Of a stretch of DNA of 56,154 bases, positions 26,233 to 42,442 are shown piece after piece. The position numbers and the translations under genes were made by a program. Each line of letters opens with the position of its first letter. Position 1 is the first letter of the stretch. A model generated the notes under the pieces. The model saw nothing but the letters and a program-made list of their open reading frames with translations. It had not been told where the DNA came from and did no database searches. The stretch covers positions 1 to 56,154 of the forward strand of contig JAGUXX010000225.1 of assembly GCA_020061585.1 (NCBI GenBank), in the 5' to 3' direction. This DNA is from Betaproteobacteria bacterium. GTDB taxonomy: Bacteria; Pseudomonadota; Gammaproteobacteria; Burkholderiales; Thiobacillaceae.

Positions 26233-27606
<1,374 letters not shown>

Positions 27607-27669: not shown

Positions 27670-29100
27670 TTAAGCCGCCGGTAGCCGGATGCGAAATTCC
27701 GCGCCGCCTTCGGGGCGATTGGTGACGCCGATGCAGCCGCCGTGTTCTTCGATGATCTCGAAGGCGATGAACAGCCCGAGTCCGCTGCCTTGGCCGACCG
27801 CCTTGGTGGTGTAGAACGGGTCGAACACCCGTTCCTGGTGCTCGGCCGGAATGCCGGGGCCAGTGTCGCCGAGCAGCAGATCGACGACCGCGTTGCCGGG
27901 GCGACATTGGCCGGTCAACCCAGGCAGCAGATCATATTTACCGACCACCCCGGCCTGCGCGGCGATGCTTAGAACGCCCCGCGCGCCCATGGCGTCGTAG
28001 GCATTGACGATCAGATTCAGCAGCACCTGTTGCAGGCGCGGGCGGTCGCCGCTGACCGTAAGAGCCGCCGCGATGTCGACGCGCACCTCGACGCCGGGCG
28101 GCCGTTTGGCTTTCAGAAAACGCAGGGTTTCCTCGACCAACTCGGCCAGCGGTACCGGCGCGGGCTTGAATTCACGGTCGCCGGCATAGTCCAGCAGGGC
28201 GCGCACAATGCGCCGGGCGCGCAGGGTTTCGGCATCGATGTCAGCGATCAGTTGCTGCTGAAATGTCGGATCGATGCCGGCGTCTTCCCGCAGGATCTGC
28301 GCCGAAGAAGAAATATTCGATAACGGGTTGTTCAACTCGTGCGCCACGCCCGACAGCAATGTGCCCAGCGATGCCAGCTTTTCAGCGCGCACCAGAGTGT
28401 GTTGACGGCGCTCCAGTTCGTCCAGAACATGGTTGAAAGCGGCGGCCAGCGACACCAGTTCGCGTTCCCGGCTGTCCAGCGCCAGCCGGGTGAGCTGGCC
28501 GCTGGCCACCGCTTCCATGCGCGCCTCCATGGCCTGCAACGGGCGCGCGACCTGGCGCGCCAGCACAATGCCGGTCAGGGTCAGCAAGGCCGCCACCACC
28601 GCCAGCCAGATCAGCAGACTGCGCCGATGCGCGGTCAACGCCGCATTCAGCGAGTCGCGCTCCAGCGCCGCCAGTTGCTCGCCGACGGTGACCAGGCGAT
28701 TGCCCAACATGCGCGCCGCATTGGCCAGGGCTTCGTCGAGCGGCTGCTCGGCATGCGCCTGCATCGCCGCGACATAGCGATCGAGATCGGCGATCAGTCG
28801 ACCCGCGCTGCCGCGGCCGGCCAGCGTGTCGAGTCCAGTCGCGTCGCGCAGCAGGATTTCCCGGGCGCGCTGGGCGTAGCGGGCGTGATCCGCCAGGTCG
28901 CCGGCCTGTTGGTAAAGGAAATGGTTTTTTTCGAACCGCCGCATTTCCAGCGTCGCGTCGACCAGTTCCGCCACCTTGCTGCCTTCGCGCGCCTTGTCGG
29001 CGATGCGGTCGAGTTCGATCAGCGCCCCCGCCGACAGGCCGATGATCAGCGCGGCGAGGGCGAGATAGACGAAAACAATCTTGGCTTGCAGGGAATGCAT
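27670..29100 (-). CDS. Membrane-bound sensor histidine kinase
   Basis: A 476-residue kinase with a membrane segment at about 8-28 (IVFVYLALAALIIGLSAGAL), a roughly 130-residue helical periplasmic domain, a second membrane segment (SLLIWLAVVAALLTLTGIVL), then a HAMP domain. The HisKA H-box is SGVAHELNNPLSNISSSAQI, and the ATPase domain has LNLIVNAYDAMG (N-box), LLGDTGPGIP (G1) and GSGLGLFIAFEIIEEHGG (G2). This architecture resembles NtrB/ZraS-type partners of NtrC-family activators. It is transcribed away from the SulP/hydrogenase-like operon, and its start is only 10 bp from the palindrome at 29110. Confidence 0.9.
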   Translation of the reverse strand: MHSLQAKIVFVYLALAALIIGLSAGALIELDRIADKAREGSKVAELVDATLEMRRFEKNHFLYQQAGDLADHARYAQRAREILLRDATGLDTLAGRGSAGRLIADLDRYVAAMQAHAEQPLDEALANAARMLGNRLVTVGEQLAALERDSLNAALTAHRRSLLIWLAVVAALLTLTGIVLARQVARPLQAMEARMEAVASGQLTRLALDSRERELVSLAAAFNHVLDELERRQHTLVRAEKLASLGTLLSGVAHELNNPLSNISSSAQILREDAGIDPTFQQQLIADIDAETLRARRIVRALLDYAGDREFKPAPVPLAELVEETLRFLKAKRPPGVEVRVDIAAALTVSGDRPRLQQVLLNLIVNAYDAMGARGVLSIAAQAGVVGKYDLLPGLTGQCRPGNAVVDLLLGDTGPGIPAEHQERVFDPFYTTKAVGQGSGLGLFIAFEIIEEHGGCIGVTNRPEGGAEFRIRLPAA

Positions 29101-29109
29101 GCGGCGGAG

Positions 29110-29127
29110 TGTAACAGCGGTGTTGCA
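29110..29127. promoter_or_regulatory. Candidate upstream activator site (palindrome) for the sigma-54 regulator
   Basis: TGTAACA-GCGG-TGTTGCA is an imperfect inverted repeat with 7-base arms (one mismatched pair). It is centred about 107 bp upstream of the start site implied by the -24/-12 element at 29200, the distance usual for NtrC-family enhancer sites. It also lies just before the kinase start, so it could serve both directions. A second palindrome, TTGAT-N7-ATCAA (29161-29177), sits nearer the promoter. Confidence 0.5.
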
Positions 29128-29199
29128 ATATGAAACGTATGAATTTCGAGTTCTGTAAGATTGATATTTATAATCAACAAGTTAACGAATTATTTTGAA

Positions 29200-29215
29200 T
29201 GGCACGATTGCTGCT
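29200..29215 (+). promoter_or_regulatory. Sigma-54 (-24/-12) promoter of the SulP/hydrogenase-like operon
   Basis: TGGCACG-ATTG-CTGCT matches the sigma-54 consensus TGGCACG-N4-TTGCW at every fixed position but one (C for the first T of TTGC). GG (29201-29202) and GC (29213-29214) have the required 10-base spacing. The start site would fall near 29226. The adjacent divergent gene pair encodes a GAFTGA-containing activator and its kinase. Confidence 0.75.
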
Positions 29216-29249
29216 AATGATAAAGGGTCGTCATTTACGCCCTATCGCC

Positions 29250-29420
29250 ATGCGTGCCACGCCCGAACAAACCTACCTAGCCGAACGTCTGCAATCCGCC
29301 CGAGGGTTGGGCTGGCCGGTCGACACCGGCGCCAAGCCGCCGGCGGCGACTTCGTTCTGGCAAGCCATACGCGATGTGCCGCGGCGCCTGCTGACGATCT
29401 GCTTGCGCTTCGCCCGCTGA
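29250..29420 (+). CDS. Small ORF, first of the sigma-54 operon (unknown)
   Basis: A 56-residue basic peptide, starting MRATPEQTYLAERLQSARGL and ending in the amphipathic RRLLTICLRFAR. An in-frame ATG at 29199 overlaps the -24 element and would lie upstream of the predicted start site, so the ATG at 29250 is preferred. There is no strong ribosome-binding site. It is followed after 7 bp by the Usp-like gene. I recognise no family; the AT-to-GC shift at its start and its codon usage look coding, but this is a moderate-confidence call. Confidence 0.45.
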   Translation: MRATPEQTYLAERLQSARGLGWPVDTGAKPPAATSFWQAIRDVPRRLLTICLRFAR

Positions 29421-29427
29421 AGCGAGC

Positions 29428-29802
29428 ATGAGACGTCGCATCGTCGTCGCGCTGCGGCCGGTGTCGCCGGTGGAGCGCCTGCTGAAAGTCGGCGCCGCGC
29501 TGTGTCGTCGCCTGGAAGCCGAACTGGAAGTGCTGGCCGACCCGACGCGGCCGGATTGGGCGGACATCGAAGCGCGTCTCGCCGCGCTGGAAGCCGATGG
29601 CGTCGACTGCCGCCTGACACCGGCGGCGGGGCTGGACGCGAAGCGGGTCGTCGAGCACGCGCGCAGCCATGAATGCGTGACTTCCGTGGTGGTCGGGCGT
29701 CCCGCCGCCTGGGCCGGCGACAGCCACGGCGATCCCTGGAGCAAGCTGGAATGTCCGCTGGTGGCGGCATCCGATTCCCCCGATTTACCCGAAGAAAACT
29801 GA
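29428..29802 (+). CDS. Usp-like small protein
   Basis: A 124-residue soluble protein. It starts MRRRIVVALRPVSPVERLLK and has the alternating strand-helix layout of universal stress proteins: VALRP strand, GAALCRRLEAELEVLAD helix/strand, AKRVVEHARSHECVTSVVVG, then LECPLVAAS, which mirrors the usual final 'hadcPVLvV' strand. The ATP-binding G-x2-G-x9-G-S/T motif is not intact, so nucleotide binding is doubtful. It ends 3 bp before the SulP gene, suggesting translational coupling and a regulatory role toward the transporter or the downstream complex. Family assignment is by fold pattern only. Confidence 0.55.
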   Translation: MRRRIVVALRPVSPVERLLKVGAALCRRLEAELEVLADPTRPDWADIEARLAALEADGVDCRLTPAAGLDAKRVVEHARSHECVTSVVVGRPAAWAGDSHGDPWSKLECPLVAASDSPDLPEEN

Positions 29803-29805
29803 GCC

Positions 29806-31530
29806 ATGCAAAAAATTGCCCGATTTCTCCCCTTCCTGCGCTGGTTTCCGATGCAGGGCGATACCGTCAAGGCCGATTTCATGGCCGGCATCACCGTCGC
29901 CCTGGTGCTGATTCCGCAGTCCATGGCCTATGCGCAACTGGCTGGCCTGCCGGCCTATTACGGCTTGTACGCGGCATTTCTGCCGGTGGCGGTGGCGGCG
30001 TTGTGGGGCTCGTCGAATCAGTTGGGCACCGGTCCGGTGGCGGTGGTGTCGTTGTTGACCGCGTCCAGTCTGGCGACCTTGGCCGCGCCCGGCTCCGAGG
30101 CCTTCGTCGCGCTGGCGATACTGCTGGCGTTGCTGGTCGGCGTGATTCAGTTGCTGCTTGGGGTGTTCAAGCTGGGCATTATCGTCAACTTTTTGTCGCA
30201 CCCGGTCATCGTCGGCTTCACCAACGCGGCGGCGATCATCATCGCGCTGTCGCAGGTGTCCAAGCTGTTCGGACTGTCGATGGGGCGCAGCGAGCATTTC
30301 GTCAATGACATCCTGGTGATGTTCGGCAAACTCGGTGACACCCATTTGCCAACGCTGGCGATGGGCGTGCTGGCCATCGCGATGATGTGGAGCGTCAAGA
30401 AATTTCGTCCGAAATGGCCGGGTGTGCTGATCGCCGTGGCAGTCACCACGGTGCTGTCGTGGGCGCTGAAGTTCAATGTCGAGCTGGGCGGCGCCGTGGT
30501 CGGCGAGATTCCACAGGGCTTGCCCAGCGTCGCCTTGCCTACCTGGGACCAGGCCAATATCGGCGTGCTGTTTTCGTCCGCGCTGGTGATTTCGCTGGTC
30601 GGCTTCATGGAGGCGATTTCGATCGCCAAGGCGATCGCCGCCAAGACCAAGCAACGCCTGGACCCGAACCAGGAATTGATCGGCCAGGGTTTGTCGAATA
30701 TCGTCGGGTCGATGACCCAATCGTTCCCGGTTTCCGGCTCCTTCTCGCGCTCGGCGGTGAATCAGGGCGCCGGCGCCAAGACCGGCATGAGCTCGGTGTA
30801 CACCGCCATCTTCGTGCTGATCACGCTGCTGTTCCTGACCCCCTTGCTGTATCACCTGCCGCAGGCGGTGCTGGCGGCGATCATCATCATGGCGGTGATC
30901 GGACTGGTCAATTTCGGCGCGGTGAAGCACGCCTGGCAGGCCAACAAGCACGACGGCATGGCCTCCATCGTCACCTTTTTCGCCACCATGGCGTTCGCGC
31001 CGCATCTGGACAACGGCATCATGGTCGGCGCCGGTTTGGCGTTGATCCTGTTCCTGATGCGCACCATGAAGCCGCGCGTCGCGCAGCTCGGCCGCTACAA
31101 GGATGGCACGCTGCGCGACATCAAGGTCAACCCGGACCTGCCGACCAGCGAGCATGTGGTGGCGATGCGTTTCGATGGCCAGTTGTATTTCGGCAATGTG
31201 TCGTTCTTCGAGGACACCGTGCTGGCGGTGCTGGCGGATAACCCGAAGGCGAAATATTTCCTGGTGGTCGGCGATGGTATCAACCAGCTCGACGCCTCCG
31301 GCGAGGAAGTCATCCACCATCTGGTCAGCCGACTCAAGGAAGCCGGCGTCGAACTGGTGTTTTCCGGCCTGAAAAAGCAGGTGCTGGATGTGATGCGCGC
31401 CACCGGTCTGTTCGAGGCGATCGGCCATCACAACATCTTCGCCACCGAGGATCAGGCCATTACCGCGATCTACGAACGCCTGGGCGAAGCGGCGCAGGAT
31501 GATCTGTTTTGCATGCTGAAACCGGCGTGA
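29806..31530 (+). CDS. SulP-family anion transporter with STAS domain
   Basis: A 574-residue membrane transporter. The N-terminal signature DFMAGITVALVLIPQSMAYAQ with LAGLPAYYGLYAAF and GTGPVAVVSLLTAS are SulP hallmarks, with about 11-14 membrane segments up to residue ~430 and SGSFSRSAVNQGAGAKTGMSS in the core. A cytoplasmic STAS domain (about 440-560; YFLVVGDGINQLDASGEEV and GVELVFSGLKKQVLDVMRATGL) completes it. SulP members carry sulfate, bicarbonate (BicA) or other anions; the substrate here cannot be read from sequence. It sits inside a sigma-54 operon with a hydrogenase-like complex in a strain with Calvin-cycle genes, so bicarbonate is a reasonable hypothesis. Confidence 0.92.
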   Translation: MQKIARFLPFLRWFPMQGDTVKADFMAGITVALVLIPQSMAYAQLAGLPAYYGLYAAFLPVAVAALWGSSNQLGTGPVAVVSLLTASSLATLAAPGSEAFVALAILLALLVGVIQLLLGVFKLGIIVNFLSHPVIVGFTNAAAIIIALSQVSKLFGLSMGRSEHFVNDILVMFGKLGDTHLPTLAMGVLAIAMMWSVKKFRPKWPGVLIAVAVTTVLSWALKFNVELGGAVVGEIPQGLPSVALPTWDQANIGVLFSSALVISLVGFMEAISIAKAIAAKTKQRLDPNQELIGQGLSNIVGSMTQSFPVSGSFSRSAVNQGAGAKTGMSSVYTAIFVLITLLFLTPLLYHLPQAVLAAIIIMAVIGLVNFGAVKHAWQANKHDGMASIVTFFATMAFAPHLDNGIMVGAGLALILFLMRTMKPRVAQLGRYKDGTLRDIKVNPDLPTSEHVVAMRFDGQLYFGNVSFFEDTVLAVLADNPKAKYFLVVGDGINQLDASGEEVIHHLVSRLKEAGVELVFSGLKKQVLDVMRATGLFEAIGHHNIFATEDQAITAIYERLGEAAQDDLFCMLKPA

Positions 31531-31582
31531 CCAGCGTGATAATTCATCCCATCATAGCCCCTGACGCCCACGACTCAGACTC

Positions 31583-33607
31583 ATGACCGAAACGCTGAAC
31601 TTACCCGACTTGGTGCACTGGGCCTGGGCCGGGGTGCTGTACTGGCTGATCCTCGGGTTTTCCGCGCTGTTGCTGCAAAGCCGGCGGCGGCTGCTGACCC
31701 GCGTGATATTCCCGCTTGGCGCGCTGGGCGCGTTGTTCATCGCCGGCGTCGGCGCGGCGGGTCTGGTTGCGCCGACCTCGGCCATCATACTGCCGATCGG
31801 CCTGCCGGACCTGCCGTTCCATCTGCGCCTGGATGCGCTGTCCGCGTTTTTCCTGGTGTTGCTCGGCGGCGCGGCGTTCGGCGTGACGGTCTACGCCGCC
31901 GGCTATTTCCGCAATATGCGCGCCGGACCGCTGGGCTTGCTGGCGCTGTGGTACCACCTGTTTCTGGCCGGCATGGTCACCGTGCTGCTGGCCGACGACG
32001 CCTATGCCTTCATGGTGGCCTGGGAAGTCATGGCGCTGTCGTCGTATTTCCTGGTCACCACCGATCACAAGATTCCCGAAATCCGCCGCGCCGGTTTTCT
32101 CTATCTGCTGATCGCCCATGTCGGCGCGGTCTCCCTGTTGTTGTGTTTCGGTGTATTGCAGGGCGGCGAGGGCGATTACACCTTCAACACCATGCGTCTG
32201 GCCGAGATCGCGCCGTTCTGGGCGTCGGTCGCCTATCTGCTGGCGTTGTTCGGCTTCGGCGCCAAGGCCGGACTGGTGCCGATGCATGTCTGGCTGCCGG
32301 AAGCGCATCCGGCCGCGCCGTCGCCGGTGTCGGCGCTGATGTCCGGGGTGATGCTGAAAACCGCGATTTACGGGCTGCTGCGGGTCACCTTCGATCTGCT
32401 CAACGTGCAACTCGGCTGGTGGGGCACGCTGGCGTTGGCGCTGGGCCTGCTGACCGCGATATACGGCGTGATCTTCGCGGCGGTGCAGTCGGACATGAAA
32501 CGCCTGCTGGCCTGGTCGTCGATCGAGAACATCGGCATCATTCTGGCCGCCTTCGGCCTGACGCTGATTTTCTACACCGACGGCAAGGGCGCGTTGGCGG
32601 CGTTGACCATGACCGCGCTGCTGTATCACGCGATCAATCACGCCTTCTTCAAGGGCCTGCTGTTCATCGGTACCGGTTCGGTGCTGCATGCCACCGGCGA
32701 ACGGCGCATGGGCCATCTGGGCGGGTTGATCCGCTTCATGCCGTGGACCGCCTGGCTGACGCTGATCGGCGCGCTGGCCATCGCCGGATTGCCGCCGCTG
32801 AACGGCTTCGTCTCGGAATGGCTGTTGTTGCAGGCGTTTCTGTTGTCGCCCGGGCTGTCGCAACCCTATCTGAACATGGTGATTCCGGTCGCCGCCGCGT
32901 CGGTCGCGCTGGCGGCGGCGTTGGCGGCCTATGTCATGGTCAAGTTCTTCGGCGTGGTGTTTCTCGGTCAGCCGCGCGATCCGGCCTTGCATCATGCCCA
33001 CGAAGCCAGTTGGGCCGAACGTCTGGGCATGATCTGGCTGGCCGCCGGCTGTGTGTTGCTCGGGCTGCTGCCGTCGCAGGTGATCGGCTGGCTGGCGCCG
33101 GTGGTGACGCAACTCACCGGCCAGGCCTTGATCAACGACGCGCCGTCGGCCAGCGCCTGGCTGATGTTGGCGCCGGTGTCGGCGGAGCGCGCCAGCTACG
33201 CGCCGCTGGTGTTTCTGGCGGTGGTGCTGACCACGCTGTTGCTGGTGTACATCTGGGTGCGCCGGGTCTACCACGGTCGGGTGCGGCGCGCCGACGCCTG
33301 GGATTGCGGTTACCCGGAACAGGACGCGCGCATGCAGGACACCGCCGAAGGTTTCGGCCAGCCGATCCGGCAGATCTTCGAGATGTTCATGCGCGTGGAA
33401 CGCGAGCGGCCGGATCCGTTCGACCGCCATCCGCGCTATACCGGCGCCTCGCACGACAAGCTCTGGTTCATCGTCTACGAACCCATCGCCAAGATTGTCG
33501 GCTGGCTGTCCGATCAGGCCGGCAAGCTGCAACACGGGCGCATCCAGTGGTATCTGATCTACAGCTTCGCGACACTGATTTTCTTGCTTGTTTTTGTGAC
33601 ACGGTGA
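31583..33607 (+). CDS. HyfB/NuoL-like antiporter subunit of hydrogenase-4-like complex
   Basis: A 674-residue polytopic protein, close in length to E. coli HyfB. It has the Mrp/NuoL proton-translocating core: the TM5 glutamate in VAWEVMALSSYFLV, the broken-helix lysine segment FGAKAGLVPMHVWLPEAHPA with APSPVSALMSGVMLK, and WSSIENIGIIL. These residues suggest ion pumping is retained. The C-terminal segment (RADAWDCGYPEQDARMQDTA) matches HyfB-type extensions rather than Nuo subunits. The gene follows SulP by 52 bp. It would form one of two antiporter-like arms with the subunit at 35309. Confidence 0.9.
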   Translation: MTETLNLPDLVHWAWAGVLYWLILGFSALLLQSRRRLLTRVIFPLGALGALFIAGVGAAGLVAPTSAIILPIGLPDLPFHLRLDALSAFFLVLLGGAAFGVTVYAAGYFRNMRAGPLGLLALWYHLFLAGMVTVLLADDAYAFMVAWEVMALSSYFLVTTDHKIPEIRRAGFLYLLIAHVGAVSLLLCFGVLQGGEGDYTFNTMRLAEIAPFWASVAYLLALFGFGAKAGLVPMHVWLPEAHPAAPSPVSALMSGVMLKTAIYGLLRVTFDLLNVQLGWWGTLALALGLLTAIYGVIFAAVQSDMKRLLAWSSIENIGIILAAFGLTLIFYTDGKGALAALTMTALLYHAINHAFFKGLLFIGTGSVLHATGERRMGHLGGLIRFMPWTAWLTLIGALAIAGLPPLNGFVSEWLLLQAFLLSPGLSQPYLNMVIPVAAASVALAAALAAYVMVKFFGVVFLGQPRDPALHHAHEASWAERLGMIWLAAGCVLLGLLPSQVIGWLAPVVTQLTGQALINDAPSASAWLMLAPVSAERASYAPLVFLAVVLTTLLLVYIWVRRVYHGRVRRADAWDCGYPEQDARMQDTAEGFGQPIRQIFEMFMRVERERPDPFDRHPRYTGASHDKLWFIVYEPIAKIVGWLSDQAGKLQHGRIQWYLIYSFATLIFLLVFVTR

Positions 33608-33612
33608 ACGCC

Positions 33613-33702
33613 ATGAGTATCAACGTCCCTTGCGCGGGGTGCGTCCTGCGCACCGTCAACCGGAGCGGCGCGCATGGCGCGCCCTGCGAGTGCAATCCAT
33701 GA
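33613..33702 (+). CDS. 29-codon cysteine-rich mini-ORF between the hyfB- and hyfC-like genes
   Basis: ATG at 33613 opens a 29-codon frame, MSINVPCAGCVLRTVNRSGA followed by HGAPCECNP, with a CxxC and a CxC pair, and its TGA overlaps the ATG of the next gene (ATGA). The stop-start overlap is the kind used for translational coupling. The ribosome-binding site is poor, and the underlying DNA holds GC-rich stems, so it may only be a spacer. Confidence 0.25.
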   Translation: MSINVPCAGCVLRTVNRSGAHGAPCECNP

Positions 33703-34643
33703 CCACCGGCATCCTCCTCCAGATCGCCCAGACCCTGGCCGCCATCCTGCTGGCGCCGTTGCTGATGGGCTGGGTCAATCAATGTCGCGCCTGGTTGCAG
33801 GGCCGTAGCGCGCCGCCGATCACCCAGCCGTATCGCACCTTGCGCAAGCTGTTCCACAAGGACGCGGTGATCGCGCACAACGCCAGCCCGCTGTTCCGCT
33901 TCGCGCCATACATGATCTTCGCCTGCATGGCGCTGGCCGCCGGCATCGTGCCGACCATCGCCAACGACCTGCCGTTCTCGCCGGCGGCCGATGTCATCGC
34001 GCTGGTCGGCATCTTCGCGCTGGCGCGGGTGTTTCTGGCGCTGGCGGCGATGGACATTGGCACTTCCTTTGGCAGCCTCGGCGCGCGGCGCGAGATGCTG
34101 GTGTCGTTCCTGGCCGAGCCGGCGCTGCTGATGGTGTTCTTCACCGCCAGTTTCATCTCGCAATCGACCGAGCTGCCGATCATCGTGCAGGCCCTGGCGC
34201 ACAAGGAATTCGTCATCTATCCCAGCATGGCCTTCGCGGCGGTGGCGTTCTGGATGATCTCGGTGGCGGAGAACGCGCGGATTCCGGTGGACAACCCGAC
34301 CACCCATCTGGAACTGACGATGATCCACGAGGCGATGATCCTGGAATATTCCGCCCGCCATCTGGCGCTGATCGAGTGGGCGGTGGCGCTCAAGCTGTTC
34401 ACTTATTCGGCGCTGGGCATCGCCTTGTTCCTGCCCTGGGGCATCGCGCCGCAGGGCGATCCGAGCGCCTTGCCGCTGGCCTTGTTGGCCATGCTGCTGA
34501 AGATGGCGATCGGCGGCGCGGCGTTGTCGTTGATGGAAGCCATATCCGCCAAGCTGCGGCTGTTCCGCGCCCCGGAATTCCTCGGCACCGCCTTTCTGCT
34601 CGGCGTGCTGGGCATGCTGATTCATTTTCTGCTGGAGGTATGA
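33699..34643 (+). CDS. HyfC/HycD/NuoH-like membrane subunit
   Basis: A 314-residue protein with about eight membrane segments. NuoH/HycD family features include PYRTLRKLFHKDAVI in the first cytoplasmic loop, FGSLGARREMLVSFLAEPAL, the acidic loop AENARIPVDNPTTHLELTMIHE (corresponding to the quinone/proton-channel E-rich loop of NuoH) and LEYSARHLALIEWAVALK. In energy-converting hydrogenases and complex I this subunit links the redox module to the membrane arm. The start at 33699 fits the family; an upstream extension is not supported. Confidence 0.9.
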   Translation: MTTGILLQIAQTLAAILLAPLLMGWVNQCRAWLQGRSAPPITQPYRTLRKLFHKDAVIAHNASPLFRFAPYMIFACMALAAGIVPTIANDLPFSPAADVIALVGIFALARVFLALAAMDIGTSFGSLGARREMLVSFLAEPALLMVFFTASFISQSTELPIIVQALAHKEFVIYPSMAFAAVAFWMISVAENARIPVDNPTTHLELTMIHEAMILEYSARHLALIEWAVALKLFTYSALGIALFLPWGIAPQGDPSALPLALLAMLLKMAIGGAALSLMEAISAKLRLFRAPEFLGTAFLLGVLGMLIHFLLEV

Positions 34644-34644
34644 G

Positions 34645-35307
34645 ATGTCGCTGACCTACCACCTGCAAATCGTCAACCTGCTCGCCGCGCTGCTGTTGCT
34701 GATCTCGTTCGCGATGCTGTCGCAGCGCCGCATCGTCGGACTGATCACGCTGTTCGCCTGGCAGGGCGCGGCGCTGACTTTGTCGACCGGGTTGATCGCC
34801 TGGTCCACCGGCCAGCACCACCTTTACTACTCGGCCGGCCTGACCCTGCTGCTGAAGGTCATCGGCATACCCTGGTTCTTCTTTCGCCTGGTCAAGAAGC
34901 TGGATGTCGACCGCGACGTCGAACCGATGATCAACATCCCCACCACCATGCTGATCGGCATCGTGCTGGTGATCTTCGCCTTCAACCTGGCGCTGCCGAT
35001 CTCGCAGATGTCCGGCACGGTGATGCGTTCGACGCTGGGCATCGCCATGGCCTGCGTGCTGCTGGCGTTCCTGATGATGATCACCCGCAGCAAGGCGATC
35101 CCGCAGATCATCGGCTTCCTGTCGATCGAAAACGGTCTGTTCTTCGCCGCCACCAGCGCCACCTACGGCATGCCGCTGGTGGTCGAACTGGGCGTCGCCC
35201 TGGATGTGATGGTGGCCTTGTTCGTGCTGGGCATCATGTCGTTCCAGATTCGCGAGTCGTTCGATTCGATGGACCTGAAACATATGGAAAAACTGAAAGA
35301 GCGCTGA
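34645..35307 (+). CDS. HyfE-like (NuoK-containing) membrane subunit
   Basis: A 220-residue hydrophobic protein with about six or seven membrane segments. The second half (GIAMACVLLAFLMMITRSKA and IPQIIGFLSIENGLFFAATS) carries the NuoK-like helix with a conserved membrane glutamate (LSIENG). The length and layout match E. coli HyfE (about 216 aa), which is found in hydrogenase-4-type and related complexes and not in hydrogenase 3. It starts 1 bp after the preceding stop. Confidence 0.88.
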   Translation: MSLTYHLQIVNLLAALLLLISFAMLSQRRIVGLITLFAWQGAALTLSTGLIAWSTGQHHLYYSAGLTLLLKVIGIPWFFFRLVKKLDVDRDVEPMINIPTTMLIGIVLVIFAFNLALPISQMSGTVMRSTLGIAMACVLLAFLMMITRSKAIPQIIGFLSIENGLFFAATSATYGMPLVVELGVALDVMVALFVLGIMSFQIRESFDSMDLKHMEKLKER

Positions 35308-35308
35308 G

Positions 35309-36763
35309 ATGGAAATTTACTGGTTACTCGGCATCCCCGTCGCCGGCGGGATCTTCCTGGCGCTGTGGGGCTGTCGTCGCAACGCCCCGGAAATCAATGC
35401 GCTGTTCAGTTTTCTGACGCTGCTGGCGGCGGCCGCGCTGACCGCCCGGATCGTCGAGCACGGCCCGCTGCTGGTCGGCGGGCAGGGCTGGTTCTTCATC
35501 GACTCGTTCAACGTGTTCCTGGTCGCCTTGACCGCTTTCGTGGCGTTCACCACCTCGCTGTTCTCGCGACCCTACATGCGCATCGAGAAGGAACACGGCC
35601 GGCTCAACGACAAGCGTCTGCGTCTGTACCACAGCAGCTATCAGATCTTCATCGCCGCCATGCTGCTGGCGCTGACCACCAACAACATGGGCATCCTGTG
35701 GGTGTCGATGGAAGCCGCCACCCTGGCCACCGTGCTGCTGGTGTCGCTGTATCGCACCCCGGCCTCGCTGGAGGCGGCCTGGAAGTACTTCATCCTGTGC
35801 GGCGTCGGCATCGCCTTGGCGCTGTTCGGCACCATCCTGCTGTATTTCGCGGCGGAAAAGATCCTCGGCTCCGGCGGTACCGCGCTGCTGTGGACGCATC
35901 TCAACGGCGTCAAGGCGCAACTGGAACCCACCGTGCTGCAACTGGCGTTCGTGTTTCTGCTGGTCGGCTACGGCACCAAGGTCGGCCTGGCGCCGCTGCA
36001 CAGCTGGTTGCCGGACGCCCACGCCGAAGGTCCGACACCGGTGTCGGCGGTGCTCTCCGGGCTGCTGCTGAATGTCGCGCTGTATGCGGTGATGCGCTCC
36101 AAGGTGCTGGTCGACGGCGCGCTCGGCAATGACATGGCGGGCAATCTGATGATGGGCTTCGGCTTGTTCAGCGTGGTGCTGGCGGCGTTTCTGATCAAGC
36201 GCCAGACCGACGTCAAGCGCATGTTCGCCTACTCGTCGATCGAACACATGGGCCTGATCACCTTCGCTTTCGGCATGGGCGGCCCGGTCGCCAACTTCGC
36301 GGCGTTGCTGCACATGACCATGCACAGCCTGACCAAATCGGCGATCTTCTTCGCCGTGGGGCATGCCACGCAGAGCGCCGGCACGCAATTGATGGACGGC
36401 ATTCGCGGCCTGATCAAGACCAATCCGACCATCGGCTGGGGCCTGATGCTGGGCACGGTGGCGATCCTCGGCGTGCCGCCGTTCGGCGTGTTCGCCAGCG
36501 AATTCCTGATCATCACCACCGCCATGCACGAACATCCCTGGGCGACGCCGTTCCTGCTGCTGGCGCTGGGCGTGGCCTTCGCGGCGATTTTCGGCAAGGT
36601 GCAGCCGATGGTGTTCGGCGAGACCGAATTGCCGAAACTGCCGTATCAGCCGGCGCTGACCCCGGTGTTCATGCACCTCGGTCTGGTGTTGATGCTGGGC
36701 CTGTTCATTCCGCCCTACCTCGCGGCCTGGTACCGGCAGGCGGCGCAACTGCTGGGAGGCTGA
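35309..36763 (+). CDS. HyfF/NuoN-like antiporter subunit
   Basis: A 484-residue polytopic subunit, second Mrp-like arm of the complex. Key residues are preserved: LWVSMEAATLATVLLVSLYR (TM5 Glu), VGYGTKVGLAPLHSWLPDAH followed by AEGPTPVSAVLSGLLLN (Lys broken helix), and FAYSSIEHMGLITFAFGMG. HyfF of E. coli is longer (526 aa), but the core is complete. It starts 1 bp after the hyfE-like stop, consistent with a tight operon. Confidence 0.9.
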   Translation: MEIYWLLGIPVAGGIFLALWGCRRNAPEINALFSFLTLLAAAALTARIVEHGPLLVGGQGWFFIDSFNVFLVALTAFVAFTTSLFSRPYMRIEKEHGRLNDKRLRLYHSSYQIFIAAMLLALTTNNMGILWVSMEAATLATVLLVSLYRTPASLEAAWKYFILCGVGIALALFGTILLYFAAEKILGSGGTALLWTHLNGVKAQLEPTVLQLAFVFLLVGYGTKVGLAPLHSWLPDAHAEGPTPVSAVLSGLLLNVALYAVMRSKVLVDGALGNDMAGNLMMGFGLFSVVLAAFLIKRQTDVKRMFAYSSIEHMGLITFAFGMGGPVANFAALLHMTMHSLTKSAIFFAVGHATQSAGTQLMDGIRGLIKTNPTIGWGLMLGTVAILGVPPFGVFASEFLIITTAMHEHPWATPFLLLALGVAFAAIFGKVQPMVFGETELPKLPYQPALTPVFMHLGLVLMLGLFIPPYLAAWYRQAAQLLGG

Positions 36764-36764
36764 C

Positions 36765-38318
36765 ATGCATATCGGCGAACAAGACTGGCATCTGAATCCG
36801 CTCGGCACGCATATCTGGCGCGGTGTCTTCGAACCCGGCCAATTGCTGGCCCTGGCGCGCGGCGTCAAGGACGCGGGCGGACAGCTGCTCGCCCTGTGGG
36901 GCTCGGACGACCGGCATCTCGCTGGCGGTTTCAGCGTGCATGTCGTGCTGCTCACCAGCCAGGGACTGGCCTGGGCCAGTTGCGCGCTGGACGCCGAGAC
37001 GCCGAGCTATCCCGATCTGGCGCACATCTTTCCGCAGGCCGACCGCATGCAGCGCGCCGCCTTCGACTTGCTCGGCATCCGCGCCGAGGGCGCGGTGGAC
37101 GAGCGCAAATGGCTGCGCCACAACGCCTGGTCGGCCGAGGTGTTTCCGCTGCGCAAGGATTTCGTTGCGCCCGTCGCGGGCCGCGAGTCGTCCCTCGCCG
37201 CGGTGGACGGCTATCCGTTCATCCGCGTCGAAGGCGACGGCGTGCACGAAATACCGGTCGGGCCGATCCACGCCGGCACCATCGAGCCGGGGCATTTCCG
37301 CTTCTCGATCATCGGCGACCGCATCCTGCGCCTGGAACAGCGGCTCGGCTACACCCATCAGGGCGTCGAAAAGCGCTTCGAAGGCATGGACCTCGAAGCC
37401 GGCGCCAAGCTGGCCGGCCGCGTCTCCGGCGATACCCATATCGGTTTTGCCTGGGCCTACAGCATGGCCGTGGAGACCGCCACGACCAGCGTCATTCCGC
37501 CGCGCGCCGCCTGGCTGCGCGCCTTGTTCCTGGAGATCGAGCGGATCGCCAATCATCTCGGTGATCTCGGCTATCTCGCCAACGACGTGGCGCTGAGTTT
37601 CGGCTTCATGCAGTTCTGGCGTCTGAAGGAAGACTGGCTGCGGCTGTGCGCCGAGCTGTTCGGCCATCGCTATCTGTTCGATTGCATCGTGCCGGGTGGC
37701 GTCGGCGTCGATCTGTCCGCAGAGGGCGGCAGGCAATTGGTGGCGCTGGCGCGGCGCATCGAAGCGGAAACCCGCGAACTGAAGGCCATCTACGACGAAC
37801 ACGCCACCTTGCAGGACCGCTTCGCCAATACCGGCATCTGCAAGCCGGAGATGGCCGCGCGCCTCGGCCTCACCGGTTTGCCCGGCCGCGCCAGCGCCCA
37901 GGCCTGGGATGCGCGCGCGCAGTTCCCGCAGACACCTTACGAGCAGTTGCAGGTGAATATGGCGACGCAGCGCAAGGGCGATGTGCTGGCGCGCGCCGAA
38001 GTGCGCTTCGCCGAGGTCTACGAGTCGCTGCGCCTGCTGCGCGAGATCGTCGAACGCTTGCCGGCCGGCGCGATCCACACCCCCCTGGCGCCGGTCGAGC
38101 GGGTCTGCGAGGGTCTCGGCTGGGTCGAGGGTTGGCGCGGCGAGGTCCTGGTGGCGGTGCGTATCGGCGCCGACGGCCGACTCGATCGGGTGCATCCGCA
38201 CGATCCGTCCTGGCAGAATTGGCCGCTGCTGGAAGTCGGCGTGCTGGGCAACATCGTTCCGGATTTCCCGCTGATCAACAAATCGTTCAACCTGAGTTAC
38301 TCGGGGCAGGACCTCTGA
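36765..38318 (+). CDS. Hydrogenase-4 large-subunit-like protein lacking the nickel ligands (NuoCD-like)
   Basis: A 517-residue fusion of a NuoC-like domain (about 1-130, ending HNAWSAEVFPLRKDF) with a NuoD/[NiFe]-hydrogenase large-subunit domain (VGPIHAGTIEPGHFRFSIIG, LEQRLGYTHQGVEKRFEG). In active HycE/HyfG, nickel is held by an N-terminal RxCGxC and a C-terminal DPCxxC. Here the first site reads R219-V-S-G-D-T-H225 and the second reads D480-P-S-W-Q-N485, so all four cysteines are absent. The protein should therefore not bind a NiFe centre; it belongs with hydrogenase-related (Ehr) or complex-I-like subunits. Fold otherwise looks intact and under selection. Confidence 0.9.
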   Translation: MHIGEQDWHLNPLGTHIWRGVFEPGQLLALARGVKDAGGQLLALWGSDDRHLAGGFSVHVVLLTSQGLAWASCALDAETPSYPDLAHIFPQADRMQRAAFDLLGIRAEGAVDERKWLRHNAWSAEVFPLRKDFVAPVAGRESSLAAVDGYPFIRVEGDGVHEIPVGPIHAGTIEPGHFRFSIIGDRILRLEQRLGYTHQGVEKRFEGMDLEAGAKLAGRVSGDTHIGFAWAYSMAVETATTSVIPPRAAWLRALFLEIERIANHLGDLGYLANDVALSFGFMQFWRLKEDWLRLCAELFGHRYLFDCIVPGGVGVDLSAEGGRQLVALARRIEAETRELKAIYDEHATLQDRFANTGICKPEMAARLGLTGLPGRASAQAWDARAQFPQTPYEQLQVNMATQRKGDVLARAEVRFAEVYESLRLLREIVERLPAGAIHTPLAPVERVCEGLGWVEGWRGEVLVAVRIGADGRLDRVHPHDPSWQNWPLLEVGVLGNIVPDFPLINKSFNLSYSGQDL

Positions 38319-38319
38319 T

Positions 38320-38868
38320 ATGGCCACCCACCTCATCCTCAAGAAAATCTTCAAAACCGGCTTCGTCTCGGAACCGGCGCCGGCGCCGGATCTGACCATG
38401 CTGACCGCCGATCAGGCGACGCATGAGCAAAACCAGTTGCACGCCGATATCCTCAAGGTGTTCGGCCAGGCGGTGACCATACGCCACGTCGATGCCGGTT
38501 CCTGCAACGGCTGCGAACTGGAAATCCACGCCCTCGGCGGGCCGCATTACAACATCGAGGGGCTGGGCATCAAGTTCGCCGCCAGCCCGCGCCATGTCGA
38601 TGTGTTGCTGGTCACCGGACCGGTATCGCGCAATCTGGAAGTGGCGCTGCAACGCACTTACGACGCCACGCCGGAACCGAAATGGGTAGTGGCGATGGGC
38701 GATTGCGCCGGCGGCTGCGGCATGGCCGGGGCGATGTTCGGCGAGAACTATGCTTCATGCGGCAAGATTTCCAACGTCATCCCGGTCGATGTCGAAGTGC
38801 CGGGTTGCCCGCCAACGCCGACCGCCCTGTTGCGGGGCATCCTGGCGGCGGTGAGCCGGCCGAAATAG
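38320..38868 (+). CDS. HyfI/HycG/NuoB-like iron-sulfur subunit
   Basis: A 182-residue small subunit. Cluster ligands for one [4Fe-4S] centre are conserved: GSCNGCELEIHALGGPHYNI (C62, C65), MGDCA (C129) and PGCPPTPTALLRGI (C163). Extra cysteines lie at C133 and C147. So the electron-transfer cluster nearest to the large subunit is kept although the nickel site is gone. No HyfA- or HyfH-like ferredoxin subunit is encoded nearby, so the electron donor or acceptor must be another protein or a quinone. Confidence 0.92.
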   Translation: MATHLILKKIFKTGFVSEPAPAPDLTMLTADQATHEQNQLHADILKVFGQAVTIRHVDAGSCNGCELEIHALGGPHYNIEGLGIKFAASPRHVDVLLVTGPVSRNLEVALQRTYDATPEPKWVVAMGDCAGGCGMAGAMFGENYASCGKISNVIPVDVEVPGCPPTPTALLRGILAAVSRPK

Positions 38869-38882
38869 AACGGGCCGAACCA

Positions 38883-39746
38883 ATGCCGGACATGCCGCTG
38901 CTCGAACTGTCCGGCAAGCTGCTCGGCGAACGCGGCCGCGTGCGCGTGCTCGAATCGCCGCAATGCGACGCGCGCTGGCTGATGGCCCGCATCCTCAGCG
39001 GCCGTTACGGCAAGCCGTTCATCATCGAAGACGGCCGCACCCGACGGCTGTATTTCAATCTGCGCGCGGTGCAGAGCGCCATGCGCTTCGACGACCCGTT
39101 CGCCCTGGATTTTGCCTACACGCGCAAGATGATGGCGTTTCTGCTGTTCGTGCCGGACCCCGCTGATGTGCTGATGGTCGGTCTGGGCGGCGGCTCGCTG
39201 GCCAAGTTCTGCCACCGCCATTTGCCGCGCGCGCGGCTGACGGTGGTCGAGGTGAATCCCGATGTCATCGCGCTGCGGCATGAATTCTGCATTCCCGATG
39301 ATCCGCGTCTGCGCATCGTCCAGGCCGATGCCGTCGATTTTCTGCCGCAAGCCGAAGCCGATACCGATGTGCTGCTGCTGGATGGTTTCGATGGCGATGG
39401 CATCGCGCCGGCGTTTCTCGATCCCGCCTTCTACCAGGCGGCGCGGCGCCGGCTGCGGCCGGAGGGGGTGCTGGCCGCCAACTTCGCCGGCCCGGAGAGC
39501 GCTTGGCTGTCGCACTACAGCTTGCTGAGCGAGGCCTTTGCCGGCCGGGTCCATCTCGGCTGTGTCGCCGGTGGGGAAAACCGCATCGCCTTCGCCTTCG
39601 CCGATTCCGGTTACCCGCTCGACTGGGCAGGTTTGCACGCTCAGGCGAGCGGGCTGAGCGGACGTCTGCCGCTGGATTTTTCGGTGCTGGTGGAAAGGCT
39701 GCGAGATGGCGCGGAACTGCGCCGAGCGCTGGCCGGCGGTTGCTGA
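38883..39746 (+). CDS. Spermidine synthase-like methyltransferase-fold protein
   Basis: A 287-residue protein with the spermidine synthase/SAM-binding Rossmann fold: VLMVGLGGGSLAKFCHRHLP (motif I), LTVVEVNPDVIALRHEF (acidic end of strand 2), IVQADAVDFLP, and DVLLLDGFDGDGIAPAF in place of the catalytic YDVIIxDxxDP. The catalytic Asp pattern is partly changed, and such proteins are common in proteobacteria without proven polyamine activity. ATG at 38883 chosen by length, with a 14 bp gap after the iron-sulfur subunit; it may be cotranscribed with the hydrogenase-like complex. Confidence 0.75.
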   Translation: MPDMPLLELSGKLLGERGRVRVLESPQCDARWLMARILSGRYGKPFIIEDGRTRRLYFNLRAVQSAMRFDDPFALDFAYTRKMMAFLLFVPDPADVLMVGLGGGSLAKFCHRHLPRARLTVVEVNPDVIALRHEFCIPDDPRLRIVQADAVDFLPQAEADTDVLLLDGFDGDGIAPAFLDPAFYQAARRRLRPEGVLAANFAGPESAWLSHYSLLSEAFAGRVHLGCVAGGENRIAFAFADSGYPLDWAGLHAQASGLSGRLPLDFSVLVERLRDGAELRRALAGGC

Positions 39747-39868
39747 GCGGCCTGTCTGGGTCGACGGAATTTTGCCGATCGACGCGGCAGTGCCTAAAGT
39801 TTTTTTATCGTCTGCCGTTGAGTGGCCTCCCGGGCGAGATATCCCGCCGGACAACCAAGGAGATACTC

Positions 39869-40318
39869 ATGAACATTCGCAGCCTTTTCAGCCTCGTATT
39901 CGCCGGTTCCATGGCATTCGCGCCCGGTTTCGCTTTGGCGGTCGAGGAGACCCCGCAAGCCATACCCGGCGGCAAGATGGTCGACGTGGCGCAAGCCAAG
40001 GCCTTGTTCGACAAGGGCGCGGTTTTCGTCGATTCGCGGGTTGCCGCCGAATACGCCGAGAAGCACATCAAGGGTGCGCTCGGCATCGTGTACAAAGAGA
40101 CGCACAAGAAGGTCGGCAAACTGGATCCGAAGGACTCGATGGACATGACCAAGCTGCCGGCCGACAAGAACAAGGCATTGGTGTTCTATTGCAACGGCTC
40201 GCCCTGCTGGCGCGGTTACAAGGGCGCGGATGCCGCCATCAAGGCCGGCTACAAACAGGTGAACTGGTTCCGCGACGGTTTGCCGGCGTGGGAAAGCAAG
40301 GGCTATCCCACCGAGTAA
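39869..40318 (+). CDS. Periplasmic rhodanese-like sulfurtransferase
   Basis: A 149-residue single-domain rhodanese with a signal peptide (hydrophobic [20 protein letters not shown], cleavage probably after A24). The rhodanese core has [20 protein letters not shown] and the active-site loop [16 protein letters not shown], with C108 as the likely persulfide cysteine and a second cysteine C113 in the loop. AAGGAG precedes the ATG. It would act in the periplasm, possibly in sulfur oxidation or cyanide/sulfite handling, which fits the dsrA gene in the same window. Confidence 0.88.
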
Positions 40319-40352
40319 AGCACCAGCAATCGATTTCAACAGGGGGATGGTC

Positions 40353-41975
40353 ATGATTCACACCTTGCGCGGCATGCTGATTCTTTTGGCGGCGGCGAGT
40401 TTATTGTCGCTGCTCGCGCTGGGTGGCATGGCCATCCACGCCGCGAAAAGCGGCGCGGAACAGTTGAGCGCGGCGAACGATCAGGCGGTGGTGCCGCTGA
40501 CGGTATTGCAGTCGGTGGAACGGCGCTTGAAGGAAGTTCGCTTTCGGATCGCCGGGGTCGCCCTGGAACAGTTGCCGACCGTCGGGTCGGCGAATCACCT
40601 GAAGGAGTCGCAGGAAATCCTGCCGAAAGAATGGGCGGATTTTCGGCGTATGGCCGCCGCTCAATCTTTGCCGGAGGAAGAGGTCGCGCGTCTGGACAGC
40701 ATCGACCAGGGCATGGTCGGCCTTAATGCTCTGATGGCGCGCCTGCTGACCGCCTATCAGGAAGATGATATCGATGTCATCAAAAGCATCTTGGAAGACG
40801 ATTGGCCGGTCGTGCATGGCAGCGTGATCAAGCCGCTGGAACAGTTCATGCCGTATTTCCAGGGGGTGGTGAGCAACTCGTTCGACACCGCGAAACGCGG
40901 CGCGGCGCGCATGACCTGGATGGTCACGCTGCTGTTCGGCGGGGTGCTGCTGCTGGTCGGCGGCACGATCTGGCTGATGCTGCAACGCTTGAGCAGGCAA
41001 CTCACGGCCGCGAAAACCGCGGTCGAGGCGGTGGCCGGTTTCGACCTCACGCGCGCCATCGACGCCTCCGGCCGCGACGAGATCAGCGATCTGCTGAAGA
41101 GCCTTTCCGGCATGCGCGATCATCTGCGCGAGGTGGTGACTCAGGTTCGCGACGGCGCCCATGCCCTGGAACAGATGTCCGCCGAATTGGCCACCGCCAG
41201 CGCCGAGGTGGCCGGCGCCAGCAACCAGCAGGCGGAGTCGGCTTCCGGCATGGCGGCGTCGATGGAACAGTTGTCGGTGTCGATCGATCAGGTGCATGAG
41301 CACGCGACGATTTCCCATGATCTGGCGTCGCGTTCCGGCGAAGCTTCACGCCAGGGACGCGAGGTGACGCTGAACGCGGCCAGCGAAATGGCGTCGATCG
41401 CCGAGGGCGCCCGCCAGTCGTCGGCGATCGTCGCGGAACTGGGCGGCTTGACCGCGGAAATCACCAGCATCGTCAATGTCATCAAGGAAATCGCCGACCA
41501 GACCAATCTGCTGGCGCTGAATGCCGCCATCGAGGCGGCCCGAGCCGGCGAGCAGGGGCGCGGCTTCGCGGTGGTGGCGGATGAGGTGCGCAAGCTCGCC
41601 GAGCGTACGTCTTCGTCCACCCGCCAGATCGGTGACATGATCGAGCGTATCCAGAGCGGCACCCGGCGCACCATGCAGGCCATGGAAAACGATGTGTCGC
41701 GCGCCAATCAGGGCGAGGAACTGGCCCGGCAGGCGGGGCAGTCCATCGATCAGATCGAACAGCGCGCCGGCGATGTGGTGCGGGCGGTGAACGAGATCCA
41801 TCTGTCGCTGCGCGAACAGAGCGCCGCCGCCAAGGAGGTGGCGGTGCGTGTCGAGCAGATCGCCCAGATGACCGAGACCAATGCCGGCGCCAGTCGCCAG
41901 ACCAGTCATAATGCCGGCCAGGTATCCGGCTTGGCCGGGCGGCTCAACGAGTTGGTCGCGGGATTTCGAGTTTGA
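40353..41975 (+). CDS. Methyl-accepting chemotaxis protein
   Basis: A 540-residue chemoreceptor with an N-terminal membrane segment ([20 protein letters not shown]), a four-helix-bundle-type periplasmic sensor (about 35-190), a second segment ([21 protein letters not shown]), HAMP, and a cytoplasmic signalling domain with the hairpin tip [20 protein letters not shown] and [26 protein letters not shown] ends 6 bases before the ATG at 40353, so that start is preferred to the ATG at 40347. It starts 34 bp after the rhodanese gene. Its ligand is unknown. Confidence 0.92.
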
Positions 41976-42085
41976 CCTGAACCCCGGCTTGCACCGGGGG
42001 GCTACATCAGGGTTTGGCGGAGGTCACGCCGCAATGACCGGGCGGGATGCTCTATCATCGCGCGGCGCCAATATCCCGCTTAGCC

Positions 42086-42442
42086 ATGCACCCTCTGCTC
42101 AATACCACGGTCCTGCAGACCGTGATTCTTCTGGTCCTGTCCAACCTGTTCATGACGGTGGCGTGGTACGCCCACCTCAAGCATCTGAATGCCTATCCCT
42201 GGTGGATCGCGGCTTTCGCCAGTTGGGGCGTGGCCTTGTTCGAATATCTGTTGCAGGTGCCGGCCAACCGCATCGGCTACACCCTGCTGAGCCTGGCGCA
42301 GTTGAAGATCATCCAGGAAGTCATCACCTTGGCGGTATTCGTGCCGTTCGCGGTGTTCTACATGAAGGAGCCGATGACCTGGAATTACTTCTGGGCCGGC
42401 TGCTGCCTGCTGGGCGCGGTGTATTTCATTTTCAGGAACTGA
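42086..42442 (+). CDS. DUF486-family small membrane protein
   Basis: A 118-residue protein with four membrane segments (VLQTVILLVLSNLFMTVAWY, WWIAAFASWGVALFEYLLQV, QLKIIQEVITLAVFVPFAVF and the last AGCCLLGAVYFIF). The pattern LLNTTVLQTVILLVLSNLFMT and QVPANRIGYTLLSLAQLKII match DUF486 family members, which resemble the DMT transporter half-fold. The ATG at 42086 gives the family length. Its function is unknown. It converges with the GGDEF-EAL gene with 6 bp between the stops. Confidence 0.8.
   Translation: MHPLLNTTVLQTVILLVLSNLFMTVAWYAHLKHLNAYPWWIAAFASWGVALFEYLLQVPANRIGYTLLSLAQLKIIQEVITLAVFVPFAVFYMKEPMTWNYFWAGCCLLGAVYFIFRN

Follow-up and report, generated by a model that had tools for sequence, protein, structure and literature searches.

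A SulP transporter gene linked to a nickel-less, Ehr-type Hyf complex in Thiobacillus-type betaproteobacteria, with a possible role in inorganic-carbon uptake

Relatives of the energy-converting hydrogenases that lack nickel ligands, known as Ehr complexes, have been described as being of unknown function (PMC10284858). A nickel-less motif was reported for Acidithiobacillus in 2018 (PMC6002666), the A. ferrooxidans cluster was termed non-hydrogenase in 2020 (PMC7735108), and in A. caldus a gene for a beta-type carbonic anhydrase (CA) adjoins one hyf copy (PMC3826726). The nickel-less state of such a complex is therefore not in itself new. Among the SulP anion transporters, one from T. pelophila, encoded near carboxysome genes, supported the growth at low CO2 of Escherichia coli devoid of carbonic anhydrases (PMC12628692), and in A. 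ferrooxidans the transcripts of can2, which lies beside sulP, fall with CO2 (PMC6458275). Here we describe a locus that holds both kinds of component, in a stretch of 56,154 nucleotides (hereafter the window; positions 1 to 56,154 of contig JAGUXX010000225.1, assembly GCA_020061585.1) from a betaproteobacterium of the family Thiobacillaceae. In it, a SulP gene is followed in series and in the same direction by hyfB, hyfC, hyfE, hyfF, hyfG, and hyfI (Table 1), just where a preliminary description of the DNA had placed them. That description proposed that a nickel-less, ion-coupled redox complex, encoded in one sigma-54 operon with SulP, may energize or be coupled to the movement of bicarbonate or sulfate.

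The complex encoded here is without a nickel site. In an alignment with HyfG and HycE of E. coli, the window HyfG shows S221, T224, S511, and G514 at the four places of the nickel-binding cysteines, and the motifs RVSGDT and NLSYSG stand in place of RVCGIC and DPCYSC, the two CxxC nickel motifs of the group 4 [NiFe] hydrogenases. The loss extends to the relatives: in an alignment of 151 HyfG rows (143 distinct, some genomes being entered twice), the four positions carry a cysteine in 4, 1, 0, and 0 of the distinct rows, respectively, and never more than one in the same row. The loss of all four cysteines in the window protein bears out the nickel-less assignment, and on this ground we reject a hydrogenase function. 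HyfI, on the other hand, retains the four Fe-S cysteines that it has in common with E. coli HyfI, as do all 148 of the 148 rows aligned, which is at most consistent with redox-coupled ion translocation. Residues of HyfB (E148, K228, K259, E412) and HyfF (E135, K224, E398) that we take to be proton-channel residues are at least 97% conserved, and we infer that the complex pumps protons. The best solved match of HyfG is E. coli HycE (E 2e-61), and HyfI matches MbhJ and HycG. With these homologs of the group 4 large and small subunits, a large subunit devoid of NiFe ligands, and the antiporter-like membrane subunits HyfB and HyfF (PF00361), the complex fits the published Ehr definition (PMC6349859, PMC10284858). 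The preliminary description had noted the lack of HyfA and HyfH; of hyfA, hyfD, hyfH, and hyfJ of the E. coli hydrogenase-4 operon, a search confined to the window string found none. A complex-I-type quinone site was considered and rejected: NuoD H38 and Y87, presumably quinone-site residues, align with I173 and G222 of HyfG and are not conserved (ungapped alignment, counted by hand). Certain relatives have tandem second hyf copies, before or after the first copy and 46 to 64% identical to the window subunits (L066:374-11849 and L156), and one has further antiporter-like genes, 26 to 31% identical to HyfB or HyfF, after the hyf operon (L018:12820-21499).

The association of the complex with SulP is conserved in the window's kin. 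A search of genome contigs with HyfG gave at least 584 relatives, the best 80 of which were taken as named loci; 59 of these are usable after removal of eleven without HyfB and ten with less than 4 kb upstream of HyfB. SulP lies on the hyfB strand, no more than about 5 kb upstream of hyfB, in 37 of the 59; a gamma-CA does so in 12, and one or the other in 40 (linked loci). The preliminary description had staked its proposal on SulP being conserved beside the complex in related genomes, and in these relatives it is. The regulatory apparatus recurs as well. A sensor kinase and an NtrC-type regulator are encoded directly upstream of the operon in the opposite direction, and a gene for either is present in 23 of the 40 linked named loci versus none of the 19 unlinked ones. 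The near-perfect -24/-12 promoter reported ahead of the operon is also there (Table 1), as scored against what we take to be the sigma-54 consensus. All 25 related loci scanned (about 21 of them distinct, as L032/L185, L051/L167, L056/L160, and L071/L155 are the same genomes) carry a sigma-54-like site in the interval separating the kinase from the next gene; it has at least nine of the 11 letters in 24, each with p of at most 0.04 against the locus's own single-base shuffles, and eight letters in L048 (p 0.08). The two-component system would switch the operon on through sigma-54. One of the loci (L026) comes from a metagenome bin labeled Bordetella parapertussis, a label that, judged from the locus alone, looks wrong.

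The linkage is found in genomes with RuBisCO. In an order sample, an even draw of 200 genomes with thresholds of E 1e-150 or better for HyfB and E 1e-80 or better for the RuBisCO large subunit, HyfB is present in 55 (53 over the family cut-off), the RuBisCO large subunit in 73, and both in 38, so that hyf goes with RuBisCO (38/55 versus 35/145, Fisher p 8e-9). At least 5 kb of upstream sequence is available in 47 of the 55, the remainder (G423, G349, G308, G348, G258, G300, G357, and G234) being left out. Linkage, here defined as SulP or gamma-CA on the same strand and at most about 7 kb upstream, with the linked set picked by hand, is seen in 17 of 32 RuBisCO-positive hyf genomes versus none of 15 RuBisCO-negative ones (p 0.0002). 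On a tree of 53 rows built from HyfB, HyfC, HyfF, and HyfG, the linked label needs seven changes, at least five of them forced by starred branches. In a class sample, an even draw of 229 genomes, 18 of the 28 with HyfB over the NF005086 cut-off were found by hand to have a RuBisCO match at E 1e-80 or better. The association between RuBisCO and linkage is suggestive.

The neighbors of the operon in relatives likewise point to inorganic carbon. The proteins of one upstream cluster (c9) match dGCA1 (E 2e-30) and Cam (E 1e-26) and are therefore gamma-CAs; three histidines aligned with what we take to be the zinc ligands of Cam are kept in 23 of 23 rows (some genomes appearing twice), R44 and D46 in all 22 rows with a letter there, and Q66 in 23 of 23. 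In five of the 22 loci that have both genes (L024, L022, L018, L182, and L198), the gamma-CA gene stops between -11 and +21 bp from the estimated start of hyfB. In Thiobacillus-type loci we recognized genes for CbbL, CbbS, CbbQ, a CbbO-like protein with a VWA domain, and a LysR-type regulator; of the 59 named loci, 14 have cbb genes, and 12 of these 14 are linked. The window's own genome has RuBisCO and carboxysome genes; one of its contigs (C192) carries a gamma-CA 84% identical to the query, a second SulP, cbbLSQO, and CsoS2, with hyf on another (C242), and no match to DabA (PF10070) was found in this genome at E 1e-20. Within the RuBisCO-positive genomes of the order sample, those with hyf have DabA less often than those without (7/38 versus 15/35, p 0.04), and for linked hyf the figures are 2/17 versus 20/56 (p 0.07); within the window's family, linked hyf occurs without DabA in three genomes and DabA without hyf in two. 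The carboxysome protein CsoS2 does not track hyf (9/21 versus 29/52, p 0.44), and DabA follows carboxysomes (17/21 versus 5/52). We rejected a CsoSCA-like protein (cluster c20, P0011) as an obligate partner of hyf: it is present in 3 of the 229 class genomes at E 1e-10, and among these only G082 has HyfB over the cut-off. Its gene lies 41 bp past hyfI in L134 and near hyfI in several more loci. A protein of 351 to 365 residues beside hyfI (L017:2408-3463 on the minus strand, L134:14373-15470, L160, and L161) has a weak match to the CsoSCA catalytic domain and CMDGR, YHF, and GCA motifs, and is possibly a stand-alone carbonic anhydrase.

The explanation that we favor, tentatively, is that the operon is an accessory, sigma-54-controlled module for inorganic-carbon uptake, with SulP as importer of bicarbonate and the Ehr complex as its ion, proton, or redox support. 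It starts from what is observed, namely gene order, loss of the nickel ligands, retention of the Fe-S ligands, conserved linkage, promoter, and regulators; these features are real and conserved in the window's kin, and the link to carbon is better supported than the preliminary description could know. The host would be an autotroph near the Thiobacillus-type betaproteobacteria. SulP would import bicarbonate as a secondary transporter on an ion gradient, and HyfBCEFGI, with proton-channel-like subunits, one Fe-S cluster, and no nickel site, would move protons in step with a redox reaction, the electron donor perhaps being a soluble carrier that docks at HyfI and the acceptor reacting at the altered HyfG site. 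In this way, the complex would keep up the ion force and the pH balance needed for bicarbonate import and dehydration, and in some relatives a gamma-CA gene stands in the same string. Since SulP and hyf are each also found without the other, coupling would more likely run through the bulk gradient than through a physical SulP-Hyf complex. A bolder version, which strikes us as unlikely, has the redox work of the Ehr complex directly driving bicarbonate accumulation, with SulP as the import arm and gamma-CA as the hydration arm; this would be a third membrane-powered inorganic-carbon accumulator beside cyanobacterial NDH-1MS and DAB, replacing DAB in some carbon-fixing betaproteobacteria.

Several results weigh against the carbon-uptake reading, some from the distribution of the genes and others, given further below, from the transporter itself. 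In 32 class regions (27 over-cut-off hits besides the window and five weaker ones), 22 of which have all six core genes recognized in the order B-C-E-F-G-I, SulP was found in none among up to six upstream genes, several contigs ending within a few kilobases. Of the 47 usable order genomes, 30 lack both SulP and gamma-CA upstream, 15 of these being RuBisCO-positive, and 17 of the 55 hyf genomes have no RuBisCO match. By family, linkage stands at 6/14 versus 0/7 (p 0.06), and independent pairs number one or two in one direction and none in the other, which is not significant; with hyf labels permuted within families, the exclusion between DabA and hyf has p 0.125, and 2 of the 17 linked genomes carry DabA too. 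On the class regions and the 30 order genomes together, we reject SulP as a general partner of hyf and as a regular part of the complex. Of the preliminary interpretation, then, the nickel-less Ehr type and the retention of SulP in the window's kin stand, whereas a general partnership does not.

Together with the finding of SulP without hyf, the occurrence of the hyf core without SulP in these class and order genomes, RuBisCO-less ones included, favors a second explanation, which we regard as rather doubtful. Here two separate functions are neighbors: HyfBCEFGI would serve the energy metabolism of a lithotroph, and SulP, sharing the promoter, would act independently. The complex might, for example, use the proton gradient to push electrons backward onto a low-potential carrier, or it might oxidize formate together with a separate dehydrogenase; the Acidithiobacillus cluster sits with formate dehydrogenase (fdh) genes (PMC6002666), and formate roles have been proposed for it (PMC7735108). 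However, family searches of the window proteins recognized no fdh gene beside the window hyf, and the conserved linkage, the shared regulators, and the joining of gamma-CA to hyfB within a few base pairs speak against separate functions.

The substrate of the transporter bears on a third explanation. The window protein has the SulP family domains, including STAS, and exceeds the TIGR00815 cut-off (Table 1); it falls short of the BicA model NF050096, with 150 bits against a cut-off of 880. Among proteins of solved structure, Arabidopsis SULTR4;1 is nearest to it (E 1.5e-103), and the window protein keeps Y42, E269, S314, and R315 of that alignment (positions counted by hand), presumably the sulfate/proton residues of SULTR4;1 for substrate and coupling. 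Bicarbonate-carrying members of SLC26 have comparable residues, and retention in the window protein therefore favors neither substrate. The window SulP is one of several paralogs in its own genome, where SulP-family matches lie on five further contigs (C77, C191, C192, C260, and C103), and one of these paralogs sits beside gamma-CA, away from hyf. A second SulP of T. pelophila did not carry inorganic carbon (PMC12628692). Many hyf-linked SulP orthologs are about 707 residues long versus 574 in the window (L009:762-2867, L016, L021, and others), with an insert of about 130 residues ahead of VVG.IP.GLPS that looks coiled-coil-like by eye and is absent from the window protein. Were SulP to move sulfate, whether to take it up or to export it as the end product of sulfur oxidation, the complex would supply the proton force; the kinship with SULTR4;1 and its retained residues fit this, as does the appearance, going by record names, of many hosts as sulfur oxidizers. 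Yet the linkage is confined to RuBisCO-positive genomes in the order sample, gamma-CA lies in the same string in relatives, and linked loci are also found in iron oxidizers such as Gallionella (again by record names), and we regard sulfate transport as improbable. We tentatively take bicarbonate to be the substrate. Least likely of all is a pH-homeostasis device, in which the complex, together with bicarbonate movement, would serve to buffer the cytoplasm, with carbon supply as a side effect, a role suggested for hyfBCEFG beside the beta-CA of A. caldus (pH/CO2 homeostasis; PMC3826726) and for SulP/Can2 (PMC6458275), given that linkage is seen in 0 of 15 RuBisCO-negative hyf genomes and only in RuBisCO-positive ones of the order sample.

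Table 1. Features of the SulP-hyf locus and its surroundings, in window coordinates
Feature	Coordinates	Strand	Basis
NtrC-type response regulator with sigma-54 activation domain	26233..27606	-	PF00072, PF00158 (E 2e-62), PF02954
Sensor histidine kinase, divergent	27670..29100	-	HAMP, HisKA, HATPase_c
-24/-12 (sigma-54) promoter-like site TGGCACGATTGCTGC	29200..29214	+	10/11 consensus letters
Small ORF, restarted (previously 29199)	29250..29420	+	Read from sequence
Conserved small protein, family unproven	29428..29802	+	Homologs upstream of SulP in relatives
SulP anion transporter with STAS	29806..31530	+	PF00916 (E 4e-108), PF01740, TIGR00815 (445 bits, cut-off 380)
HyfB, antiporter-like subunit	31583..33607	+	PF00361; NF005086 (895 bits, cut-off 667)
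HyfC, NuoH-like subunit	33699..34643	+	PF00146 (E 7e-33)
HyfE, membrane subunit	34645..35307	+	NF008556 (E 2e-24, below cut-off); place conserved
HyfF, antiporter-like subunit	35309..36763	+	PF00361; NF005045 (862 bits, cut-off 543)
HyfG, large subunit (30 kDa + 49 kDa)	36765..38318	+	PF00329, PF00346; alignment with E. coli subunits
HyfI, small subunit, Fe-S cysteines 62, 65, 129, 163	38320..38868	+	PF01058
Spermidine-synthase-like gene	38883..39746	+	PF01564 (E 4e-9) on longer ORF from 38682; start from coding score

The profile matches confirm the genes and positions given previously for SulP and HyfBCEFGI. From the small open reading frame (ORF) onward, the intergenic gaps are 7, 3, 52, 91, 1, 1, 1, and 1 bp, so the earlier statement that they are mostly of 1 to 7 bp applies to six of the eight, and the SulP-HyfB (52 bp) and HyfB-HyfC (91 bp) gaps depart from it. 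The string is predicted to be cotranscribed. A scan of positions 29000 to 39000 gave eight terminator-like sites versus 8.0 in shuffles, none in the SulP-hyfB gap, and four sigma-70-like sites versus 2.1, one of them at 31516-31543. Details of the preliminary description need amendment. The small ORF probably begins at ATG 29250, because the sigma-54 site at 29200 overlaps the ATG at 29199 proposed earlier; homology to the longer version was seen in 3 of the 80 loci (L024, L030, and L033). The protein at 29428-29802 had been called Usp-like, an identity that is unsupported, since it has no Pfam or NCBIfam match at E 0.001 and no Usp match in Pfam even at E 10; Usp (PF00582) is also absent at E 10 from the proteins of three relatives, and a genuine Usp is found in L022. 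A homolog of the window protein is kept at the same place in relatives. NCBIfam calls HyfB and HyfF "hydrogenase 4," both above cut-off, and the only matches of HyfG and HyfI are to complex-I or hydrogenase models, all below cut-off. The spermidine-synthase-like gene begins about 15 bp past HyfI and may be in the same transcript. Genes for rhodanese-like, chemotaxis receptor, and small membrane proteins in the window (38883-42442) recur downstream of hyfI in L022, L024, or L034.

We found no description of SulP with a nickel-less hyf complex in the portion of the open-licence PMC literature consulted. The Ehr subset with SulP, gamma-CA, and RuBisCO genomes offers a concrete, testable setting for one Ehr type and points to a possible energy source for inorganic-carbon uptake in some carbon-fixing proteobacteria that lack DAB. 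The name "hydrogenase 4" attached to NF005086 need not imply hydrogen metabolism in these bacteria. E. coli hydrogenase-4 has homologous B, C, E, F, G, and I subunits but, unlike the window complex, also hyfA, hyfD, hyfH, and hyfJ and all four nickel cysteines, and the E. coli control scores below the NF005086 cut-off, whereas the window HyfB scores above it. Mitochondrial complex I is likewise a complex-I-like machine with gamma-CA, and chains from it are among the matches of the gamma-CAs described here, but the bacterial proteins are nearer Cam, and the window operon itself is without the gene. In DAB/DAC, a complex-I-like proton subunit is similarly used for inorganic carbon (PMC13144422), whereas the window complex has other subunits and an Fe-S cluster and its genome is without a DabA match at the threshold given. 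The can2-sulP pairs also link SulP to a carbonic anhydrase and are CO2-responsive (PMC6458275), with a beta-CA and no hyf there as against gamma-CA (in relatives) and hyf here. The Acidithiobacillus hyf/mhy cluster has the same nickel-less motifs, SGD[TS].. and NLSYSGHDL (PMC6002666), although it sits with formate dehydrogenase or beta-CA, and the available text states no link to SulP. From other Ehr complexes, the present one differs in having Hyf-type B, C, E, F, G, and I only, with SulP, gamma-CA, and sigma-54 regulators adjoining in part of the family. Judged against the portions of this literature available, the complex is thus of a known kind, and its association with SulP and gamma-CA is the apparently undescribed part.

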